This document shows positions 11,109 to 30,838 of a DNA stretch of 64,000 nt, piece after piece (the stretch's first letter is position 1; the number at the start of each line of letters is the position of its first letter). The DNA is taken from contig JAFSGP010000015.1 in assembly GCA_017440755.1 (NCBI GenBank), positions 1-64,000 of the forward strand, written 5' to 3'. The position numbers were made by a program, and so were the translations under genes. Origin of the DNA: Clostridia bacterium (GTDB lineage Bacteria; Bacillota; Clostridia; Oscillospirales; Acutalibacteraceae). Below the pieces are notes generated by a model. The model did no database searches. It saw nothing but the letters and a program-made list of their open reading frames with translations, and was not told the DNA's origin.

Positions 11109-11169
11109 ATACTTCCATAAAAATAAAAAAATAAAAGCTCTCCGCATTGCGAAGAGCCGATTGGTAAAT

Positions 11170-11508
11170 ATCTGAGTGAGCCTGTAAGCCGAGTTCTGTC
11201 GAGAACAGCCATCTATCTCGACCGACCGTTGCCGATCGGCTCAAGCCGCCTGTCGAAGCACAGCGGGCAACTGTATCGCTTCTGTCGGCGTTGCATCGGA
11301 TAGGGTTTGCAGGGCCACGCTGTCTCCAACGTGCCGGTGAGCTCTTACCTCGCCTTTCCACCCTTACCTGTGTTGCCACAGGCGGTATATCTCTGTTGCA
11401 CTTTCCCTAGGGTCACCCCCGGCGGCCGTTAGCCGTTATCCTGCCCTGTGATGCTCGGACTTTCCTCACGCACGTAAGGTGCGCGCAGCTGTTCAGCTCA
11501 CTCAGGCT
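11170..11508 (-). ncRNA. rnpB: RNase P RNA, bacterial type A
   Basis: Catalytic RNA that trims the 5' leader of pre-tRNAs. On the minus strand the conserved cores are readable: GAGGAAAGTCCGAGC near the 5' end, CAGGGCAGGATAACGGC, GGGTGACCCTAGGGAAAGTG, then GGTAAGGGTGGAAAGGC, and ACAGAACTCGGCTTACAGG near the 3' end. Helix P1 is closed by CTGAGTGAGC (11505-11496) pairing with GCTCACTCAG (11181-11172). Gene length is about 339 nt. Ends are set from P1 and may be off by a few bases. Confidence 0.95.
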
Positions 11509-11536: not shown

Positions 11537-11893
11537 TCAAGCCACTCGCACCAGAGAGCGAGGGGCCTGCCCCCGTTCGGCCGCCAGCTCGAAGGCGGCA
11601 CGGGCACGGGCAACCTGACGGCGACGCTGACGGCGCGCCTGCTTATTGCGCACCTGCACGCGGTCGTGATGCAGCACCGCGCCGCAGCCCAGCAGAACAA
11701 CGATTTGCAGCAAAACCAGCACCGCGGACAGAACGGGGGTGAGGGACAGCTGAATCTGGTGGGCAAACGCCGCATCGACGCATGCTACGGTTAGGGGCGC
11801 CAAGGCTATTTGACGGGTGAGCCCGAAGTGTCCCTTCCACAGCATAACGGCAGCCGTCGCTGCCAAAAGCAAGTCTAAAATGTATGTAAACAT
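11537..11893 (-). CDS. Small membrane protein of unknown function under a LexA-like box
   Basis: A 118-residue protein with two or three hydrophobic segments (about 3-20, 27-45 and 50-75), followed by a strongly basic, Arg-rich cytoplasmic-looking tail (about 80-118). I recognise no family. The gene is supported by AAAGGAGG 9 nt before the ATG and by a good promoter (11932-11959) with a GAAC-N4-GTTC operator over the start site. SOS induction is therefore a reasonable inference. It sits between rnpB and the epimerase gene. A role as a DNA-damage-induced membrane protein, such as a division inhibitor, is possible but unproven. Confidence 0.7.
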   Translation of the reverse strand: MFTYILDLLLAATAAVMLWKGHFGLTRQIALAPLTVACVDAAFAHQIQLSLTPVLSAVLVLLQIVVLLGCGAVLHHDRVQVRNKQARRQRRRQVARARAAFELAAERGQAPRSLVRVA

Positions 11894-11911
11894 AATCGTT
11901 TCCTCCTTTGC

Positions 11912-11925
11912 CGAACAAGTGTTCT
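11912..11925 (-). promoter_or_regulatory. LexA-like SOS operator
   Basis: CGAACAAGTGTTCT on the plus strand matches the Gram-positive SOS box CGAAC-N4-GTTCG at all but the last base, with perfect GAAC/GTTC half-sites. It begins 6 bp downstream of the -10 box and so covers the transcription start. Confidence 0.65.
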
Positions 11926-11931
11926 GTTTTC

Positions 11932-11959
11932 ATTATACACCATTTGCCGATAAATGCAA
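11932..11959 (-). promoter_or_regulatory. Promoter of the 118-aa membrane protein gene
   Basis: Minus strand: TTGCAT, 16-bp spacer, TATAAT, immediately upstream of the LexA-like operator at 11912-11925. Confidence 0.7.
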
Positions 11960-12091
11960 TAGTTTTTTGCAAAAAACCGAACATTTTTTCGTTTTTTGCA
12001 GTTTCTTTCGTATTTTGCCCTGTTTCGCCCCCGTTATCTGTATTTTACAGCAAGCAAAGGGCGATAAAACGGACAATGGAGAGGAAGCGCA

Positions 12092-23919: not shown

Positions 23920-24531
23920 TTAGCAGCAACGAATCAGGTCGCCGCCCATGCATTCACAGCAGCAGTCGGCGCAGTACAGGCTGGTACACACGTCACAGCC
24001 GGTGCAGCCCTGATTCTGCTCCACCGTGCGGTAGCCGCCGGTCTGGCGGTTGGTGGCGACCCGATTGAGGGCCTGCCGATATTCTAAGTTGCCGGGTTCC
24101 ATGTTGCAGGCGGTCTGGAAATGGGTGTAGGCGTCCTCCAGCCAGCCCTTTTTGAACAGCACGCTGCCCTTGAGGAAATACCACTCTCCATCGCGGGAGT
24201 AGGCGGGCACACCGTCCAGCAGCATCTCCGCGTCCATGATGCGGTTCTGCTGAATCATGCGGCGGATATCCCCGTAGCGGGAGGGGGAGCCGTTCGGCCC
24301 GCGGTAGCCGCCGTTGTTGGCGGAGCTGCCCGCACCACCCTTACGCATGCGCACAATGGCGTCATAGGCTTCGTTTATCTCCTGCATCTTCTCCTGCGCC
24401 AGCTCGGACAGGGGGTTATCCGCATAGTTGTCGGGGTGATATTTCCGCGCCATGTTACGATAGGCGGTTTTCACTTCGTCGTCGGTGGCGGTGGGCTTAA
24501 TGCCCAGCACCTCATAGGGGTCTCGGCTCAT
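23920..24531 (-). CDS. DnaJ-domain protein with cysteine-rich tail
   Basis: J-domain co-chaperone-like protein of 203 residues. The J domain is at about 3-65 with the Hsp70-stimulating HPD in ARKYHPDNYAD. A central region (about 90-165) looks helical and TPR-like (WYFLKGSVLFKKGWLEDAY). The C-terminus is a dense cysteine cluster, CTGCDVC, then YCADCCCECMGGD, ending in CC, with about ten Cys in 28 residues, which probably binds metal. It overlaps the DUF5685 gene by 4 nt. That neighbour also has conserved Cys, so a shared metal-related role is possible but inferred. Confidence 0.85.
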   Translation of the reverse strand: MSRDPYEVLGIKPTATDDEVKTAYRNMARKYHPDNYADNPLSELAQEKMQEINEAYDAIVRMRKGGAGSSANNGGYRGPNGSPSRYGDIRRMIQQNRIMDAEMLLDGVPAYSRDGEWYFLKGSVLFKKGWLEDAYTHFQTACNMEPGNLEYRQALNRVATNRQTGGYRTVEQNQGCTGCDVCTSLYCADCCCECMGGDLIRCC

Positions 24532-25400
24532 TTGGTTTCCTCCTTGGCAATGACTCGCCGCTGAGCGGCGGGCATTCCTTGTTCCAATATATTTCGCAGT
24601 ATGCCGTCGAAGCGGCGCACGTCTAACAGGTTATAGGCGGCAATGCATTCCGCCAGACAGGCGTTGAGGCTTTGGACGGCGTAGGTCTGTACCTCTTTTA
24701 TGGTGCCCTCGTCCGCGTCAGCGGGGAGGGAGCGGGCGGCGATATAGGGGTTGTATCGCCCTTTCGGCAGGTCGTCAGGCAGGTCGTCCACCCCGTCGAT
24801 GAGGTACACCCACCGCCCCAGACAGTAGCCGAAGCGGGCGAGCACCGTCCGCTGTTTTTCGTCAGCGGACAGGTCGGTGGCCAGCGCCTGCAGCAGCAGA
24901 GCGAAAGGCTCTGCCGCGCGGTCTACCGAGGGGCAGTTTTCCGCCTCCAGGGCGGCTTGGCGAGTCATCATCTCCGCCACCAGGCGGTCGGTGGCGGGGC
25001 GACGTTTCATCGCCTTTTTCCGCGCCGCGGCGGCAAAGGGCAGGGCGCACAGGGCACCCAATTTCTTAAAAAAGCCCTCGTCCGCTAAGGTGTCCCGCAG
25101 TTTATAATATGCCAAAAGCATACCGATATCCGCCGCCGCGTCGATGCAGGCGGTGTTCCCGGCTCTCAGGCATTTTTTGGTGGGGTTGAAGCTGCACCGT
25201 CCGCCGCAGAAGGCGGGGTCATCGGCAGCAAGCGCCATGCCCAGCAAGGCGAGGAAGGTCATATCGTAGCTGAGGGTGAAGCGGGACAGCAGCCCGTACC
25301 GCTTGCCCATTTGTTTGCACAGAGTACAGTAGATGCCGCGGTATTGCTCGTATTCGCCCATCGTGATGGTGGGCTTGTGCAGCCGCACGTATCCGAACAT
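24528..25400 (-). CDS. DUF5685 family protein
   Basis: A 290-residue protein of a clostridial family of unknown function, recognised by the start MFGYVRLHKPTITMGEYEQY, the GIYCTLCKQMGKRYG motif and the KKCLRAGN region. Cysteine motifs (YCTLC, FCGGRC, KKC) may bind metal. It is mostly helical and lacks a signal peptide. The start at 25400 was chosen because the family begins with MFGY and a GAGGG site precedes it. Genes for a J-domain protein and a membrane protein follow in the same operon, an order seen in related Clostridia as I recall. Confidence 0.82.
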   Translation of the reverse strand: MFGYVRLHKPTITMGEYEQYRGIYCTLCKQMGKRYGLLSRFTLSYDMTFLALLGMALAADDPAFCGGRCSFNPTKKCLRAGNTACIDAAADIGMLLAYYKLRDTLADEGFFKKLGALCALPFAAAARKKAMKRRPATDRLVAEMMTRQAALEAENCPSVDRAAEPFALLLQALATDLSADEKQRTVLARFGYCLGRWVYLIDGVDDLPDDLPKGRYNPYIAARSLPADADEGTIKEVQTYAVQSLNACLAECIAAYNLLDVRRFDGILRNILEQGMPAAQRRVIAKEETK

Positions 25401-25494
25401 TCCCTCACCCCCTCTTTTGCTATGATACCGCAAAATGCGTCGTATTATATGAAGTAATTGTAAATAATGGAGGGATGTCTTTTTTGATGAAGTC

Positions 25495-25523
25495 TTTACT
25501 TTTTGAAAAATAGGTGGTATACT
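25495..25523 (+). promoter_or_regulatory. Promoter of the structured leader
   Basis: TTTACT, 17-bp spacer, TATACT. The predicted start (about 25530) falls exactly on the first base of the leader RNA's closing helix. Confidence 0.65.
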
Positions 25524-25529
25524 AAGGTT

Positions 25530-25725
25530 ACCACACGAATTGGATAAAGCAAATGTATTTTTGCGGATGAAGTGTACATTTTACCTTTTGGTAAAAATGT
25601 ATGCTCTGTTCTTGTATGCTTTGTCCGTCTGACATTTGCTTACAGATCCAATTTGTGTGGTAGCAATTGTGGGAGCACGCATTTTTCGGTGTGTGCAACT
25701 ACGGTTGCACACACTTTTTTATTTT
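25530..25725 (+). promoter_or_regulatory. Candidate riboswitch/attenuator leader RNA
   Basis: A closing helix pairs 25530-25545 with 25646-25661 (16 bp, one G-U). It continues as 25548-25556 with 25632-25640 (9 bp). Then CGGATGAAG pairs with CTTTGTCCG with two wobbles, and an inner hairpin forms around ACC/GGT (25574-25604). Next comes an intrinsic terminator (25689-25720) placed just before the ribosome-binding site of the lipoprotein gene. The 3' strand of the closing helix (GTGTGG..GCAA, 25655-25666) resembles the terminator 5' arm. It could therefore pair instead with TTGCACACAC of the terminator, giving mutually exclusive states. It matches no riboswitch class I know. Confidence 0.55.
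25689..25720 (+). terminator. Intrinsic terminator inside the leader
   Basis: GTGTGTGCAAC and GTTGCACACAC form an 11-bp stem followed by T6, 20 nt before the lipoprotein start. The second paralogue's upstream region (26650-26664) keeps the GTTGCACACAC arm with TTTT but has lost the 5' arm. Confidence 0.85.
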
Positions 25726-25740
25726 TAGGAGGAATGGGGA

Positions 25741-26619
25741 ATGAAAAGGATAATATGTTTGCTGATGGCGGCATCTCTGTTCGTCAGTTTGACTGCCTGC
25801 GCTAGTGAAAAAGCGGAAAAGTATTGTTCCGAGTGCGGAAACGGAATTGACAAAAACGCTTCTGTTTGCGATGAGTGTAGTGCAGTGGTAAACGGAAAAA
25901 CGGAGAAGAAAGAAACCACCTCGAAGAAGGCGAAAAAGACGAGCAAGAAAACGCAAAAGAAGAAGGAGAGCACGGTTGCTTCGACGACTACTACCACCAC
26001 TACTACTACGACAATAACTGCAACCACTACCACAACTACTGAAATTACTACCACCACTACTGAAATTACTACTACCACAACTACGGCTAAGCCTACGACT
26101 ACTACGCAAAAGCCTACAACCACTATCAAAACGACCACAAAACCTACAACTAAGTCTACAACGACTATTGATGCGACAACAATGACGACTGCAGTTTCAA
26201 CTACAACTACGACTACAACTATGCCAAGAACGACTAGAACTGCTACACAACAAGAAATTGATATGATAGTTGAGCGAATAGTGAATTATTATTTGCCGCA
26301 GTTTCAAAATGCACAGTATCAACAACAATGTGTCATTAATGACATCCGAGCAGAAATAGATGATCTTTGTTATGAACAGGCTGTAAGTACAAAGAAATTA
26401 CAAGAGCAATATGCAAATATGGGGATGTTACAGTCAGGAGCATATGAGAGAGCTTTGCAACAGATGAATGATAAGTATAGGAGAATGATTGCAAACTTAG
26501 AGGAAGATTTGGAGTATGCTCAAGCGCAATATGACGCTTTGGAAGAAGAGTTCAATCAAACAGTTGAGGAAGAGGCATTAAAAGAAATAGAAAGATTTCA
26601 ATTAAGTACACTTTCGTGA
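25741..26619 (+). CDS. Lipoprotein with zinc ribbon, Thr-rich linker and coiled coil
   Basis: A 292-residue exported lipoprotein: signal peptide with lipobox LTAC (lipidated Cys 20), then a four-cysteine zinc-ribbon motif (C29, C32, C43, C46). A Lys-rich stretch follows, then a low-complexity Thr linker (about 80-175), and a C-terminal charged coiled coil (about 178-285) rich in Gln/Glu. No enzyme domain is visible. The region is much more AT-rich than its surroundings. Its first 65 residues are a near copy of the next gene's, so the pair arose by tandem duplication followed by divergence of the C-terminus. GGAGG precedes the ATG. Function unknown. Confidence 0.8.
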   Translation: MKRIICLLMAASLFVSLTACASEKAEKYCSECGNGIDKNASVCDECSAVVNGKTEKKETTSKKAKKTSKKTQKKKESTVASTTTTTTTTTTITATTTTTTEITTTTTEITTTTTTAKPTTTTQKPTTTIKTTTKPTTKSTTTIDATTMTTAVSTTTTTTTMPRTTRTATQQEIDMIVERIVNYYLPQFQNAQYQQQCVINDIRAEIDDLCYEQAVSTKKLQEQYANMGMLQSGAYERALQQMNDKYRRMIANLEEDLEYAQAQYDALEEEFNQTVEEEALKEIERFQLSTLS

Positions 26620-26683
26620 AAGAGCATATCGCTGGGGAGTGTTGAAAGGGTTGCACACACTTTTCGAATTGGGAGGAAGAAAA

Positions 26684-27709
26684 ATGAAAAGGATACTGTG
26701 TTTACTGATGGCGGCGTGTCTGTTTATCGGTTTGACCGCTTGCGCAGACGAAAAAGCAGAAAAGTATTGTTCCGAGTGCGGAAACGGAATTACTAAAAGC
26801 GCTTCTTTTTGCGATGAGTGCGGTGCGGCAGTAAACGGAAACAAGGTAGACGAGGAAAAAACTACCTCAAAAAAGTCGAAAGAGACTACGAAGAAAACAG
26901 AGAAAGAAACTACAGCTAAATCCACTACAACTACAACAACGGCAATTACTACTACGACCGTAACCACAACAACCACTACCAAACCTACTACCACTACCAC
27001 AACAACCACAGCTAAACCTACTACCACTACGACCACGAAGAAAATTATTACAACTGTTAAACCTACCACAAAAAAGACTACCGCTAAACCTACCACAACT
27101 AAGCTTGTGCATAAGCATTCCTACGAGGAGAAAGTGACGCCGGCTACTTGCACAAAGCAGGGTTATACTACCTATACCTGTACTTGTGGTGACACTTACA
27201 AGGCGGACTATGTAGCCCCTGCCCATATTTATGTAGATTATGTCTGCACCGCTTGCGGTGGGGTGGATAAAGCCCACGCGTATGAGTATTTGAAGTTGTG
27301 GGTTAGAGAGAATGGGAAAGTGGATGGAAATACTGTGCAGTGTGATTTTTGGAGCGGAAACAGCAAATACTCAGTGATATACAATGCACAAAATGGGCGT
27401 GTCTATATTGATAAAGGGGAATATGTATCTGGCTTTTATCATTGGTGTGGCTTGTTTTTTGATGATTACATGTATGGTTCGCAAATGGATACTAGCCGTG
27501 TAGCGGGTTACTTGAATGCAGCAAGTTTTACTTCTTCATCTCCAATTACTTATGTAGAGTACACTGGGGTGGAAGAGGTTAAATATCGTATGATAGAAAT
27601 GGCAAGAGTAGATGTTGACTTGCTGGTATACAAAATGGCGCAATTCCTTGAGTTATACCAGTTGGGTATCACCATTGCCGATTTAGGTTTTACTTCCTAC
27701 GAATATTAA
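26684..27709 (+). CDS. Paralogous zinc-ribbon lipoprotein with Cys-motif domain
   Basis: A 341-residue lipoprotein (lipobox LTAC, Cys 20) with the same four-cysteine ribbon (C29, C32, C43, C46) and a Thr-rich linker (about 75-140). It then differs from its neighbour. Residues about 143-195 carry HKHSYEEKVTPATCTKQGY, TYTCTCGDTYKADY and VCTACGG, a repeat type common on clostridial surface proteins. The C-terminal 145 residues form a globular domain I do not recognise. The start at 26684 was chosen because GGGAGGAAG is just upstream; a longer in-frame reading begins within the old leader remnant. Function unknown. Confidence 0.78.
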   Translation: MKRILCLLMAACLFIGLTACADEKAEKYCSECGNGITKSASFCDECGAAVNGNKVDEEKTTSKKSKETTKKTEKETTAKSTTTTTTAITTTTVTTTTTTKPTTTTTTTTAKPTTTTTTKKIITTVKPTTKKTTAKPTTTKLVHKHSYEEKVTPATCTKQGYTTYTCTCGDTYKADYVAPAHIYVDYVCTACGGVDKAHAYEYLKLWVRENGKVDGNTVQCDFWSGNSKYSVIYNAQNGRVYIDKGEYVSGFYHWCGLFFDDYMYGSQMDTSRVAGYLNAASFTSSSPITYVEYTGVEEVKYRMIEMARVDVDLLVYKMAQFLELYQLGITIADLGFTSYEY

Positions 27710-27715
27710 AATGGA

Positions 27716-27754
27716 AAACCGCCGCCTCGGATTTATCCGAGGCGGCGGTTTTTT
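27716..27754 (+). terminator. Intrinsic terminator of the lipoprotein pair
   Basis: AACCGCCGCCTCGGA and TCCGAGGCGGCGGTT form a 15-bp stem followed by T-rich sequence, 8 nt after the second stop. Confidence 0.92.
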
Positions 27755-27774
27755 GTTGTGTTTGTTTTTGAAGG

Positions 27775-28008
27775 AGCGGGACGATGTAGGCATCGTCCCC
27801 TACGATGAGTTTTGTGGCTTGTACAGACTGCTTTGCCTCCCTCATCGAGGGAGGGGGACCGCCGAACGGCGGTGGAGGGAGTAAAGACCGTACAGGCAAA
27901 AACTCCCTCAGTCGCCTGCGGCACCAGCTCCCTCAAAGAGGGAGCCTTGGCGGTTTGTGGTGGGTGCAAGCCGTGAGAGCGGGAGGGGCAAGCCCCTCCC
28001 CTACAGTC
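27775..28008. repeat. Composite extragenic repeat, MITE-like
   Basis: No gene here. Contains GGGACGATG...CATCGTCCCC, then a unit bounded by CCTCCCTCATCGAGGGAGGGGG and CTCCCTCAAAGAGGGAGCC. The unit encloses GCCGAACGGCGG and CAGTCGCCTGCGGCACCAG. It ends with GCGGGAGGGGCAAGCCCCTC, a copy of the palindrome at 17198-17223. The inverted ends and the length of roughly 110-190 bp suggest a non-autonomous element. Confidence 0.65.
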
Positions 28009-28009
28009 C

Positions 28010-30838
28010 TCATTGTTCCAGCATCTTCTTCAGATACTGTCCCGTATACGACCCCTCGCAGGCGGCGACCTCCTCGGGGGTGCCGCAGGCCACCAGATAG
28101 CCGCCCTTGTCGCCCCCCTCGGGACCAAGGTCGATGATGTGGTCGGCGATTTTAATCACGTCCAGATTGTGCTCGATGACGATAACGGTATTGCCGGTGT
28201 CCACCAGCCGCTGCAGCACGTCGATGAGCCGCTGTACGTCGGCGGCGTGCAAGCCGGTGGTGGGCTCGTCCAGAATATACACCGTCCGCCCCGTAGCGCG
28301 GCGGGACAGTTCCGTCGCCAGCTTCACCCGCTGTGCCTCACCACCCGACAGGGTGGTGGCGGGCTGTCCGATCTTCACGTACCCCAGCCCCACGTCCAGC
28401 AGGGTCTGCAGCTTGTGAGCAATCTTGGGTATGGCGGAGAAGAAGGCGACCCCCTCCTCCACTGTCATATCCAGCACGTCGGCGATGGATTTGCCCTTAT
28501 ATTTCACCTCTAAGGTCTCGCGGTTGTACCGCTTGCCGCCGCACACCTCGCAGGGCACGAACACGTCCGGCAGGAAGTTCATTTCAATCTTGAGGATACC
28601 GTCGCCTTGGCAAGCCTCGCACCGTCCGCCCTTCACGTTGAAGGAGAACCGCCCCGGGGTGTAGCCCCGCGCCTTAGCATCGGCGGTGGCGGCATACAGG
28701 TCGCGAATATCGTTAAACACGCCCGTGTAGGTGGCGGGGTTGGAGCGAGGGGTGCGTCCGATGGGGGATTGGTCGATGTCGATGACCTTGTCCAGATACT
28801 CCAGACCTTCCATCTTGTCGTGACGTCCCGCCCGTCCCTGGGCGCGGTTGAGGTCGTGGGCTAACCGCTTGTACAGAATGGCATTGACCAGAGAGGACTT
28901 TCCCGAGCCGGACACACCTGTCACGCAGTTGAATGCCCCTAATTTGAAAGACACGTCAATGTGCTTGAGATTGTTCTGCGCCGCCCCACGGACGGTGAGC
29001 AGATTCCCGCTTCCCTGACGGCGGGAGGCAGGCAGCGGAATGCGTCGCTTGCCGCTGAGATACTGTCCCGTCACCGACGCGTCGCAGGCTTCTATCCCCG
29101 CTACAGGTCCGGAGTAAATCACCTCGCCGCCGTGAATCCCCGCGCCGGGACCGATATCCACAATCCAGTCGGCGGCGCGCATGGTATCCTCGTCGTGCTC
29201 CACCACGATGAGAGTGTTGCCCAGATCGCGGAGATGCCGCAGGGTATCCAGCAGACGGTCGTTATCCCGCTGATGCAGACCGATGCTGGGCTCGTCCAGC
29301 ACGTACAGCACCCCCATCAGATAGGAACCAATCTGGGTGGCCAGACGGATACGCTGGCTCTCGCCGCCGGACAGGGTGGCGGAGCTGCGCCCCAAGGTGA
29401 GGTAGCCAAGCCCCACGCTGTTCAGGAAGCCCAGACGCTCCCGTATTTCTTTAAGAATGCGTTCGCCGATGAATTTTTCCCGCTCGGTAAGCTGCAATTC
29501 CGCCAAGAAGGTGAGCATATCCTCCACCGTCTTGTCGCAAAGCTCCATGATGTTCAGCCCGCCTACGGTGACCGCCAGACTCTCCGGCTTTAAGCGCCGT
29601 CCGTGGCACTCGGGGCAGTTCACCTGGCTCATATAGCTTTCCATTTCCTCCCGCACGATTTGGCTGGAGGATTCGTTATAGCGGCGCTGCATATTGTTCG
29701 CCACGCCCTCGAAGGCGGTGTAGTGGGTGCCGCTGCCGTACTCGCGGGAGTAGGACATTTGAATTTTCTCCCCGTTGGTGCCGTAGAAAATGACGTTCTG
29801 CACCGCTTGGGGCAGTTCTTGGAAGGGGGTATCCAGCGAAAAATTGTAGTGCTGCGCCAGCCCGTCAAAATACATTTTGGCGATGGTGCCGCCGTCCTTG
29901 TAGCTCCAGCCGCTGCCCTGAATCGCCCCTTGGCGAATGGACAGGGAGGGGTCGGGGACAATGCGTTCGGGGTCCATGGACATAAACACGCCCAGTCCCG
30001 TGCACTTGGGGCAAGCGCCGAAGGGGTTGTTAAAGGAGAACATACGGGGCTCCAGCTCCTCCACGCTCACCCCGTGGTCGGGGCAGGCATAGTTGCGGGA
30101 GAAGGTCAGCTCCTCGCCGCCGACCACGTCCACCGTGAGCAGCCCCTCTGCCAGCGCGGTGGCGGTTTCCACCGAGTCTGCCAGACGGCTGCGGATATCT
30201 GCTTTCACCACCAGACGGTCCACCACAATTTCGATGGTGTGCTTCTTATTTTTATCCAGCTCCACCGACTCCATCAGGTCGTACAAAATGCCGTCCACCC
30301 GGGCGCGGGCATAGCCGGCCTTGCGGGCGGAATCCAGTTCCTTCACGTACTGGCCCTTGCGTCCGCGAACGATAGGGGCGAGCAGCTGAATGCGGGTCCC
30401 CTCCTCCAGGGTGAGAATGCGGTCCACGATTTCGTCCACCGTCTGCTGGCGAATCTCCCGCCCGCAGATGGGGCAGTGGGGGATACCGATGCGGGCGTAC
30501 AGCAGGCGGAGATAGTCGAATATCTCCGTCACCGTGCCCACGGTGGAGCGGGGATTCTTGGAGGTGGTTTTCTGGTCAATGGAGATAGCGGGGGACAGAC
30601 CCTCAATGTAATCCACGTCCGGTTTTTCCATCTGTCCCAAGAATTGACGGGCGTAGCTGGACAGGCTCTCCATATACCGCCGTTGCCCCTCGGCATAGAT
30701 GGTGTCGAAGGCGAGGGAGGATTTGCCCGACCCCGACAGACCCGTGAACACAATAAGCTTGTCACGGGGTATCTCCACGTCGATGTTTTTTAGATTATGA
30801 GCGCGAGCGCCCTTGATGATGAGTTTCGTTTCAGCCAT
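28010..30838 (-). CDS. uvrA: Excinuclease ABC subunit A
   Basis: Damage-recognition ATPase of nucleotide excision repair (942 aa). Two ABC ATPase modules are visible: Walker [15 protein letters not shown] (about 31-44) and [14 protein letters not shown] (near 640), with signatures LSGGESQR and LSGGEAQR. Zinc modules include CPICGREI and the C-terminal CEACQGDG...CEVC, the UvrA zinc finger needed for damage discrimination. Length is normal. It lies after uvrB on the same strand but is separated from it by 387 bp of repeats, so the two may be transcribed separately. No SOS box was found before either gene. Confidence 0.97.

Follow-up and report, generated by a model that had tools for sequence, protein, structure and literature searches.

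Transcription-attenuating riboswitches carry a structured domain in the 5′ leader, followed by an antiterminator and a terminator that compete just before the ribosome-binding site (RBS). In trp-type (1:2/3:4) attenuators and T-box leaders, mutually exclusive pairings are arranged in a chain, the terminator being the last of them. The c-di-GMP riboswitches (GEMM classes) occur in many copies per clostridial genome, with a mixed regulon that includes many surface proteins, and second-messenger riboswitches likewise combine many copies per genome with functionally mixed regulons. Finally, MITEs and REP-type palindromes are long imperfect palindromes, also present in multiple copies per genome. 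The leader studied here lies in the window (i.e., the whole 64,000-nt stretch of clostridial DNA that was analysed) and shares these features with each of the four systems, while departing from each in other respects. Unlike known attenuating riboswitches, its family has no Rfam class, and its strongly conserved bases are mostly located in the exchanged strands and the closing helix. In contrast to trp-type and T-box leaders, it involves five strands (A, P1, L, T5 and T3, to which P2 is added; Table 1) and a pseudoknot-type P1:L step, and the T-box covariance model of Rfam does not match it. As for the c-di-GMP riboswitches, they too are Rfam classes that the family does not match, and 10 of 22 copy-rich genomes, one of them with 29 copies, are devoid of any GGDEF domain; judging from this gene content, c-di-GMP is an unlikely ligand. 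Unlike MITEs and REP-type palindromes, the family has arms that vary with compensatory changes, is retained at orthologous loci and keeps a fixed place before genes.

An earlier reading of the DNA from its letters alone (hereafter the sequence-only reading) had recognised no described class in the element, and our comparisons agree with it. No Rfam 15 family exceeds its gathering cut-off for the element (best score 20.5 vs. 70 bits). Over the whole window, RNase P alone matches Rfam 15 (a bacterial class A RNase P RNA at 11169–11504, minus strand). No description was found in the literature searched, the supplements of one large catalogue and a survey of 224 motifs lying outside this comparison; the family may figure, uncharacterised, in that catalogue, which lists 3161 candidate RNAs of human microbiomes (PMC8040213). 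Altogether, sequence comparison indicates that the window hairpin belongs to a large family of switch-like leaders, ~150–230 nt long, which occurs in Clostridia and has apparently not been described.

The leader upstream of the lipoprotein gene

The region 25525–25745 folds at −92.8 kcal/mol, compared to −51.1 ± 3.9 kcal/mol for shuffled sequences (z = −10.8), a stability reached by none of 200 shuffles. The elements that the sequence-only reading had described are all present (Table 1). The promoter places the transcription start ~7 nt past the −10 box, at 25529–25530, exactly where the closing helix begins, as had been proposed. The two arms of that helix are 94% complementary, those of the second helix 100%, and the inner hairpin also exists, while the terminator is a perfect 11-bp hairpin before the RBS. 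The gap between the closing helix and the terminator is real too, but it measures 26–27 nt instead of the 28 announced. Promoters resembling that of the window also precede the other copies inspected.

Table 1. Features of the leader and of the gene behind it (window coordinates).
Feature	Positions	Strand	Basis
Sigma-70-type promoter: −35 TTTACT, 17-nt spacer, −10 TATACT, TG upstream	25495–25523	+	sequence
Closing helix, 5′ strand (C5), begins at transcription start	25529–25545	+	fold; double changes in 8/9 pairs, 111 copies
Middle helix, outer part, 5′ strand	25547–25556	+	fold, complementarity
Strand A: partner P2 (middle helix inner part) or P1 (extended apical hairpin)	25564–25585	+	partner-swap test, folds
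Apical hairpin TTTTACC-TTTT-GGTAAAA	25579–25597	+	fold, alignment of copies
Strand P1 (AAAAATGTATGCTC): mostly unpaired, within the loop, in minimum-energy fold; complements linker L (pseudoknot)	25593–25606	+	folds, partner-swap test
Strand P2, partner of A	25613–25628	+	partner-swap test, folds
Middle helix, outer part, 3′ strand	25632–25641	+	fold, complementarity
Closing helix, 3′ strand (C3)	25646–25662	+	fold, complementarity, covariation
Linker GCAATTGTGG: outer arm of predicted antiterminator (with 25699–25708)	25663–25672	+	fold
Strand L (GAGCACGCATTTTT): pairs P1 (terminator free) or terminator 5′ arm (antiterminator core 25675–25683/25688–25696)	25673–25686	+	partner-swap test, folds
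Intrinsic terminator hairpin: T5 25689–25699, loop 25700–25703, T3 25704–25714; T-run 25715–25720	25689–25714	+	complementarity, covariation
RBS AGGAGG	25727–25734	+	direct reading
Putatively regulated gene: 292-aa lipoprotein, lipobox LTAC, zinc-ribbon-like CxxC pair, Thr-rich linker, ATG 25741	25741–26619	+	

Family members and their downstream genes

When the genome's own DNA was searched with the window element, only weak pieces were returned, yet these proved to be whole copies, having the same architecture but a different sequence, with downstream genes that encode regulators of the XRE and AbrB types and a secreted protein. A short sequence pattern yielded more copies within the genus, and a covariance model (R1) was built from an alignment of 13 copies, all of which carry a terminator and, immediately ahead of the closing helix, a promoter, and most of which have a gene behind. 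The architecture common to copies thus comprises a sigma-70 promoter, a closing helix from +1, an inner hairpin, a linker, an intrinsic terminator and an RBS. In total, 188 unique copies were collected. The RNA is found in 7 of 10 genomes of the same genus, in 56 of 150 of the same family (R1, E ≤ 0.01), in 103 of 295 of the same order (R1, E ≤ 1e-4) and in 78 of 291 drawn at the class level (R1), these draws containing the window genome and overlapping somewhat. In a phylum-level draw, none of the 198 other genomes has an R1 match, which indicates that the model is specific. The large searches scored 9–18 candidates per genome, and the copy numbers there are at least those counted, while a fuller search of five genomes gave 4 to 29 matches in each. 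The highest of them has 29 copies, and the window genome has 7 matches but 6 copies, one of the matches being a copy read on its other strand. Another weak R1 match in the window (11861–11999; 21 bits, E 0.026) is probably due to chance. Named carrier records are metagenome-assembled Oscillospiraceae, Ruminococcus, Ruminiclostridium, Eubacterium and other Clostridia, many of them from ruminant, deer and rabbit guts and most of them uncultured.

Some units are arranged head to tail, ~40–95 nt apart (L073, i.e., G172:C60, 1066–2043; L074, i.e., G103:C25; G696 contigs C2, C11, C35 and C61; G676 contigs C35 and C42), and four units stand ahead of a single 125-aa gene in L073. Thirteen copies have another unit within 200 nt downstream; those inspected each have their own promoter-like sequence. 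Hairpins and tandem units had raised the idea of integron attC-like cassette sites, which was rejected by inspection: copies carry a promoter and a terminator, and start with TGCSANACAA, which differs from the attC core motif.

Downstream sequence was sufficient for 182 copies; in 137 of them, a co-oriented start codon follows within 30 nt, and 127 of these 137 have an RBS. Such a consistent placement upstream of co-oriented genes is the one expected for a cis-regulatory RNA. Homologous genes recur downstream of copies, and 25 of the 133 distinct downstream proteins match BspA-type LRR repeats, while the others include HTH regulators, AbrB/MazE-like proteins, AMP-binding enzymes and zinc ribbons. 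According to a simple N-terminal rule, a coarse one but applied alike to the two sets, 80 of the 133 look exported or membrane-anchored, vs. 41 of 249 other ORFs in these loci (odds ratio 7.7, p = 7e-18). An N-terminal zinc-ribbon motif is found in 7 of the 133 (3 of the 249 in the background). The sequence-only reading had proposed a metal ligand on account of the zinc ribbon of the window protein, but zinc ribbons being such a minority, whereas most downstream proteins look exported, neither a metal ligand nor a zinc regulon is supported. LRR_5 matches tend to be higher in copy-rich genomes than in ten genomes of the same family without a detected copy, a correlation that is genome-level and not causal. 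An anti-phage defence theme was also rejected, matches being only scattered.

The history of individual loci was also considered. The abrB leaders of two genomes (G000:C22 and G007:C39) correspond to one orthologous locus, with flanking proteins 87–92% identical, and their inner helices differ in sequence while the pairing is kept. A second orthologous pair (G008:C22/G009:C26) also keeps the leader before abrB. At the window locus (24528–28010; L309–L318), most relatives have the gene 24528–25433 adjoining uvrA, whereas in the window genome the leader and two genes for Thr-rich zinc-ribbon lipoproteins (starting at 25741 and ~26684) stand between the two. R1 finds no leader copy before the second lipoprotein gene (26684–27709). 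At this same locus, G008 and G009 have a very similar promoter followed by a short leader without hairpin and a different Thr-rich lipoprotein gene, which implies that gain or loss of the module can occur. The G009 lipoprotein has, by eye, a thioredoxin-like C-terminus. Comparison of these loci therefore indicates a module that is inherited at some places and gained or lost at others.

Covariation and strand pairing

In an alignment of 111 copies, 99.4% of the cells of the closing helix and terminator are paired, and double changes are observed in 16 of their 19 pairs (e.g., column pair 4:237 occurs as C-G, G-C, U-A and A-U), for a covariation of 0.446, compared to 0.182 after shuffling and to no more than 0.071 after sliding. 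Since this alignment was fitted to the structure of the model, which favours paired cells, we added a partner-swap test, in which partners were exchanged between copies and duplex energies recomputed (176 copies). All six predicted pairings stand out (C5:C3, z = −23.9; A:P1, −18.5; A:P2, −30.8; P1:L, −19.6; L:T5, −10.6; T5:T3, −22.1) and also beat partners taken from the five most similar copies (p from 2e-5 to 5e-30), while ten non-predicted strand combinations, used as controls on the same copies, remain at |z| ≤ 3.1. The middle helix, which was not aligned by MAFFT/RNAalifold on 90 copies, is recovered by partner swap (z = −13.2, 43 copies). Strongly conserved unpaired bases are few, and consist mainly of AATA, which follows the closing helix, and of the GCRRCAA linker. 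With helices covarying across many sequences, the element has the properties of a structured cis-regulatory RNA.

The weakest of the six pairings is L:T5. Against the single nearest relative, it is not significant in 80 copies (p = 0.41), whereas it becomes so with 176 copies (p = 2e-5) or when the antiterminator is made to include the linker and a portion of the terminator 3′ arm (z = −13.8, p = 4e-6). Together with the covariation of the terminator, these values indicate that an intrinsic terminator and a competing antiterminator have both been kept by selection, the antiterminator pairing being the less secure. The covariance search that the sequence-only reading had suggested did recover homologues ahead of genes, and their helices covary, in agreement with its strand-exchange attenuator layout. 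The partners it had named stood only in part: the closing helix 3′ strand and the terminator 3′ arm reach z = −2.8 (−8 to −31 for real pairings), and the main exchange partners are instead the linker (25673–25686) and the inner-loop strand. What survives is the GCAA of the linker (25663–25666), which pairs with TTGC of the terminator 3′ arm (25705–25708) in the predicted antiterminator.

A proposed switch and its alternatives

In the free minimum-energy fold of the window copy, the closing and middle helices form, P1 is mostly unpaired, and the tail adopts the antiterminator rather than the terminator (25669–25672 and 25675–25683 with 25688–25696 and 25699–25702, growing to 25663–25708). The antiterminator tail is estimated at −27.1 kcal/mol, vs. 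−20.9 for the terminator, while P1:L amounts to −15.9 kcal/mol; once P1 and L are engaged with one another, the best fold is the terminator. Among 169 copies, 98 have the antiterminator in their free fold and 78 have the terminator, with possible overlap between the two counts, whereas the terminator forms in all 169 once P1 and L are sequestered. Without counting a loop penalty for the pseudoknot, the sequestered state is lower by a median of 6.9 kcal/mol, and hence the two states differ little in energy, as a switch would show.

On this basis, we propose that transcription begins at the foot of the closing helix and that the leader folds into its closing and middle helices, A pairing with P2, which would leave P1 in the inner loop. 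A P1:L pseudoknot would then occupy L, allowing the T5:T3 terminator to form and transcription to stop ahead of the gene. If P1 were kept by A, or if the pseudoknot were absent, L would pair with T5 and part of T3, and the resulting antiterminator would allow readthrough. A cellular signal stabilising one of the two states would thereby set how strongly a scattered regulon, most of whose proteins are exported, is expressed. That termination and readthrough both occur, that the pseudoknotted state is the OFF state and that the leader senses a signal, whether a ligand, a protein or another RNA, we infer. We thus regard the element, with good though incomplete confidence, as a cis-acting, multi-strand transcription attenuator belonging to a new family of clostridial switch RNAs, in which the leader probably decides on an early stop before the gene. 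Several points fit this attenuator less well, namely the weakness of L:T5 described above, a P1:L pseudoknot that is a predicted pairing whose energies include neither loop cost nor 3D modelling, the approximately one quarter of copies that are not directly ahead of a start codon, and the copies closely followed by another unit, which plain cis control leaves unexplained.

That the element would be a MITE-like transposable palindrome, which happens to carry a terminator, was the alternative raised by the sequence-only reading. The many copies per genome and the hairpin-less orthologous site of G008 and G009, where the module was gained or lost, speak for it, as do the contigs of one genome that end in copies (C3, C9, C19 and C28 of G045 end inside or beside copies, as if within longer repeats). 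In contrast, arms vary among copies of a single genome and are held together by complementarity, copies keep a single orientation and position relative to genes, and orthologous loci retain the element. Nor were conserved terminal inverted repeats, by which a MITE is recognised, found, the repeat sequences differing between copies. The strict pattern has no match among 2.9 million viral contigs (IMG/VR), a second pattern matches one IMG/VR contig, and there is no long plasmid match. Three unannotated 'phage' records from human faeces do match, and the two examined contain true copies, one beside a YicC-like bacterial gene and the other beside an integrase-like gene (by eye); in L255 (MT837627.1), a copy precedes a zinc-ribbon protein gene and has, by eye, an integrase-like gene ~1.6 kb away. 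With such records, which display no enrichment among viral or plasmid sequences, a phage or plasmid element was rejected, and a MITE appears very improbable. Scarcely better placed is a stand-alone small RNA ending at the terminator, the downstream gene being incidental or read by leakage: the unit does have its own promoter and terminator, occurs in tandem and, in a few cases (L060, L083, L118), lacks a clear gene behind, but 75% of copies precede a co-oriented start so closely, mostly with the RBS directly past the T-run, and L:T5 covaries, for which a constitutive small RNA would have no need.

Within the attenuator reading, the nature of the signal has to be weighed. In a strict riboswitch, the closed pseudoknotted fold would be an aptamer through which one small molecule or second messenger controls the whole regulon. 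The strand-exchange layout with its pseudoknot, the many copies ahead of a mixed, mostly exported gene set and the tandem units make this a serious candidate, even if the scarcity of strongly conserved unpaired bases and the poor case for c-di-GMP keep it somewhat below an even chance. Alternatively, the same attenuator could be set by an RNA-binding protein, a trans-acting RNA, transcription speed or temperature. Such control would account for conserved features lying mostly within the exchanged strands, and not in a pocket, and for states so near in energy before the loop penalty, but no partner gene is known for it, co-occurrence having covered GGDEF and LRR_5; we consider it possible, on the doubtful side.

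Being carried by approximately one quarter to one third of the sampled genomes of the family, order and class, and absent from Rfam, the leader would represent a sizeable orphan class of regulatory RNA. It also offers a testable example of a pseudoknot that would choose between terminator and antiterminator. Should it prove to be a novel ligand-sensing riboswitch class in Clostridia, built on a pseudoknot-controlled multi-strand platform, which we advance tentatively, one signal would set much of the surface and exported proteome through up to ~29 copies per genome. The regulon that the leader marks is made of surface and secreted proteins (BspA-type LRR proteins, lipoproteins) and regulators of gut Clostridia, and its signal could show how these bacteria adjust their surface.
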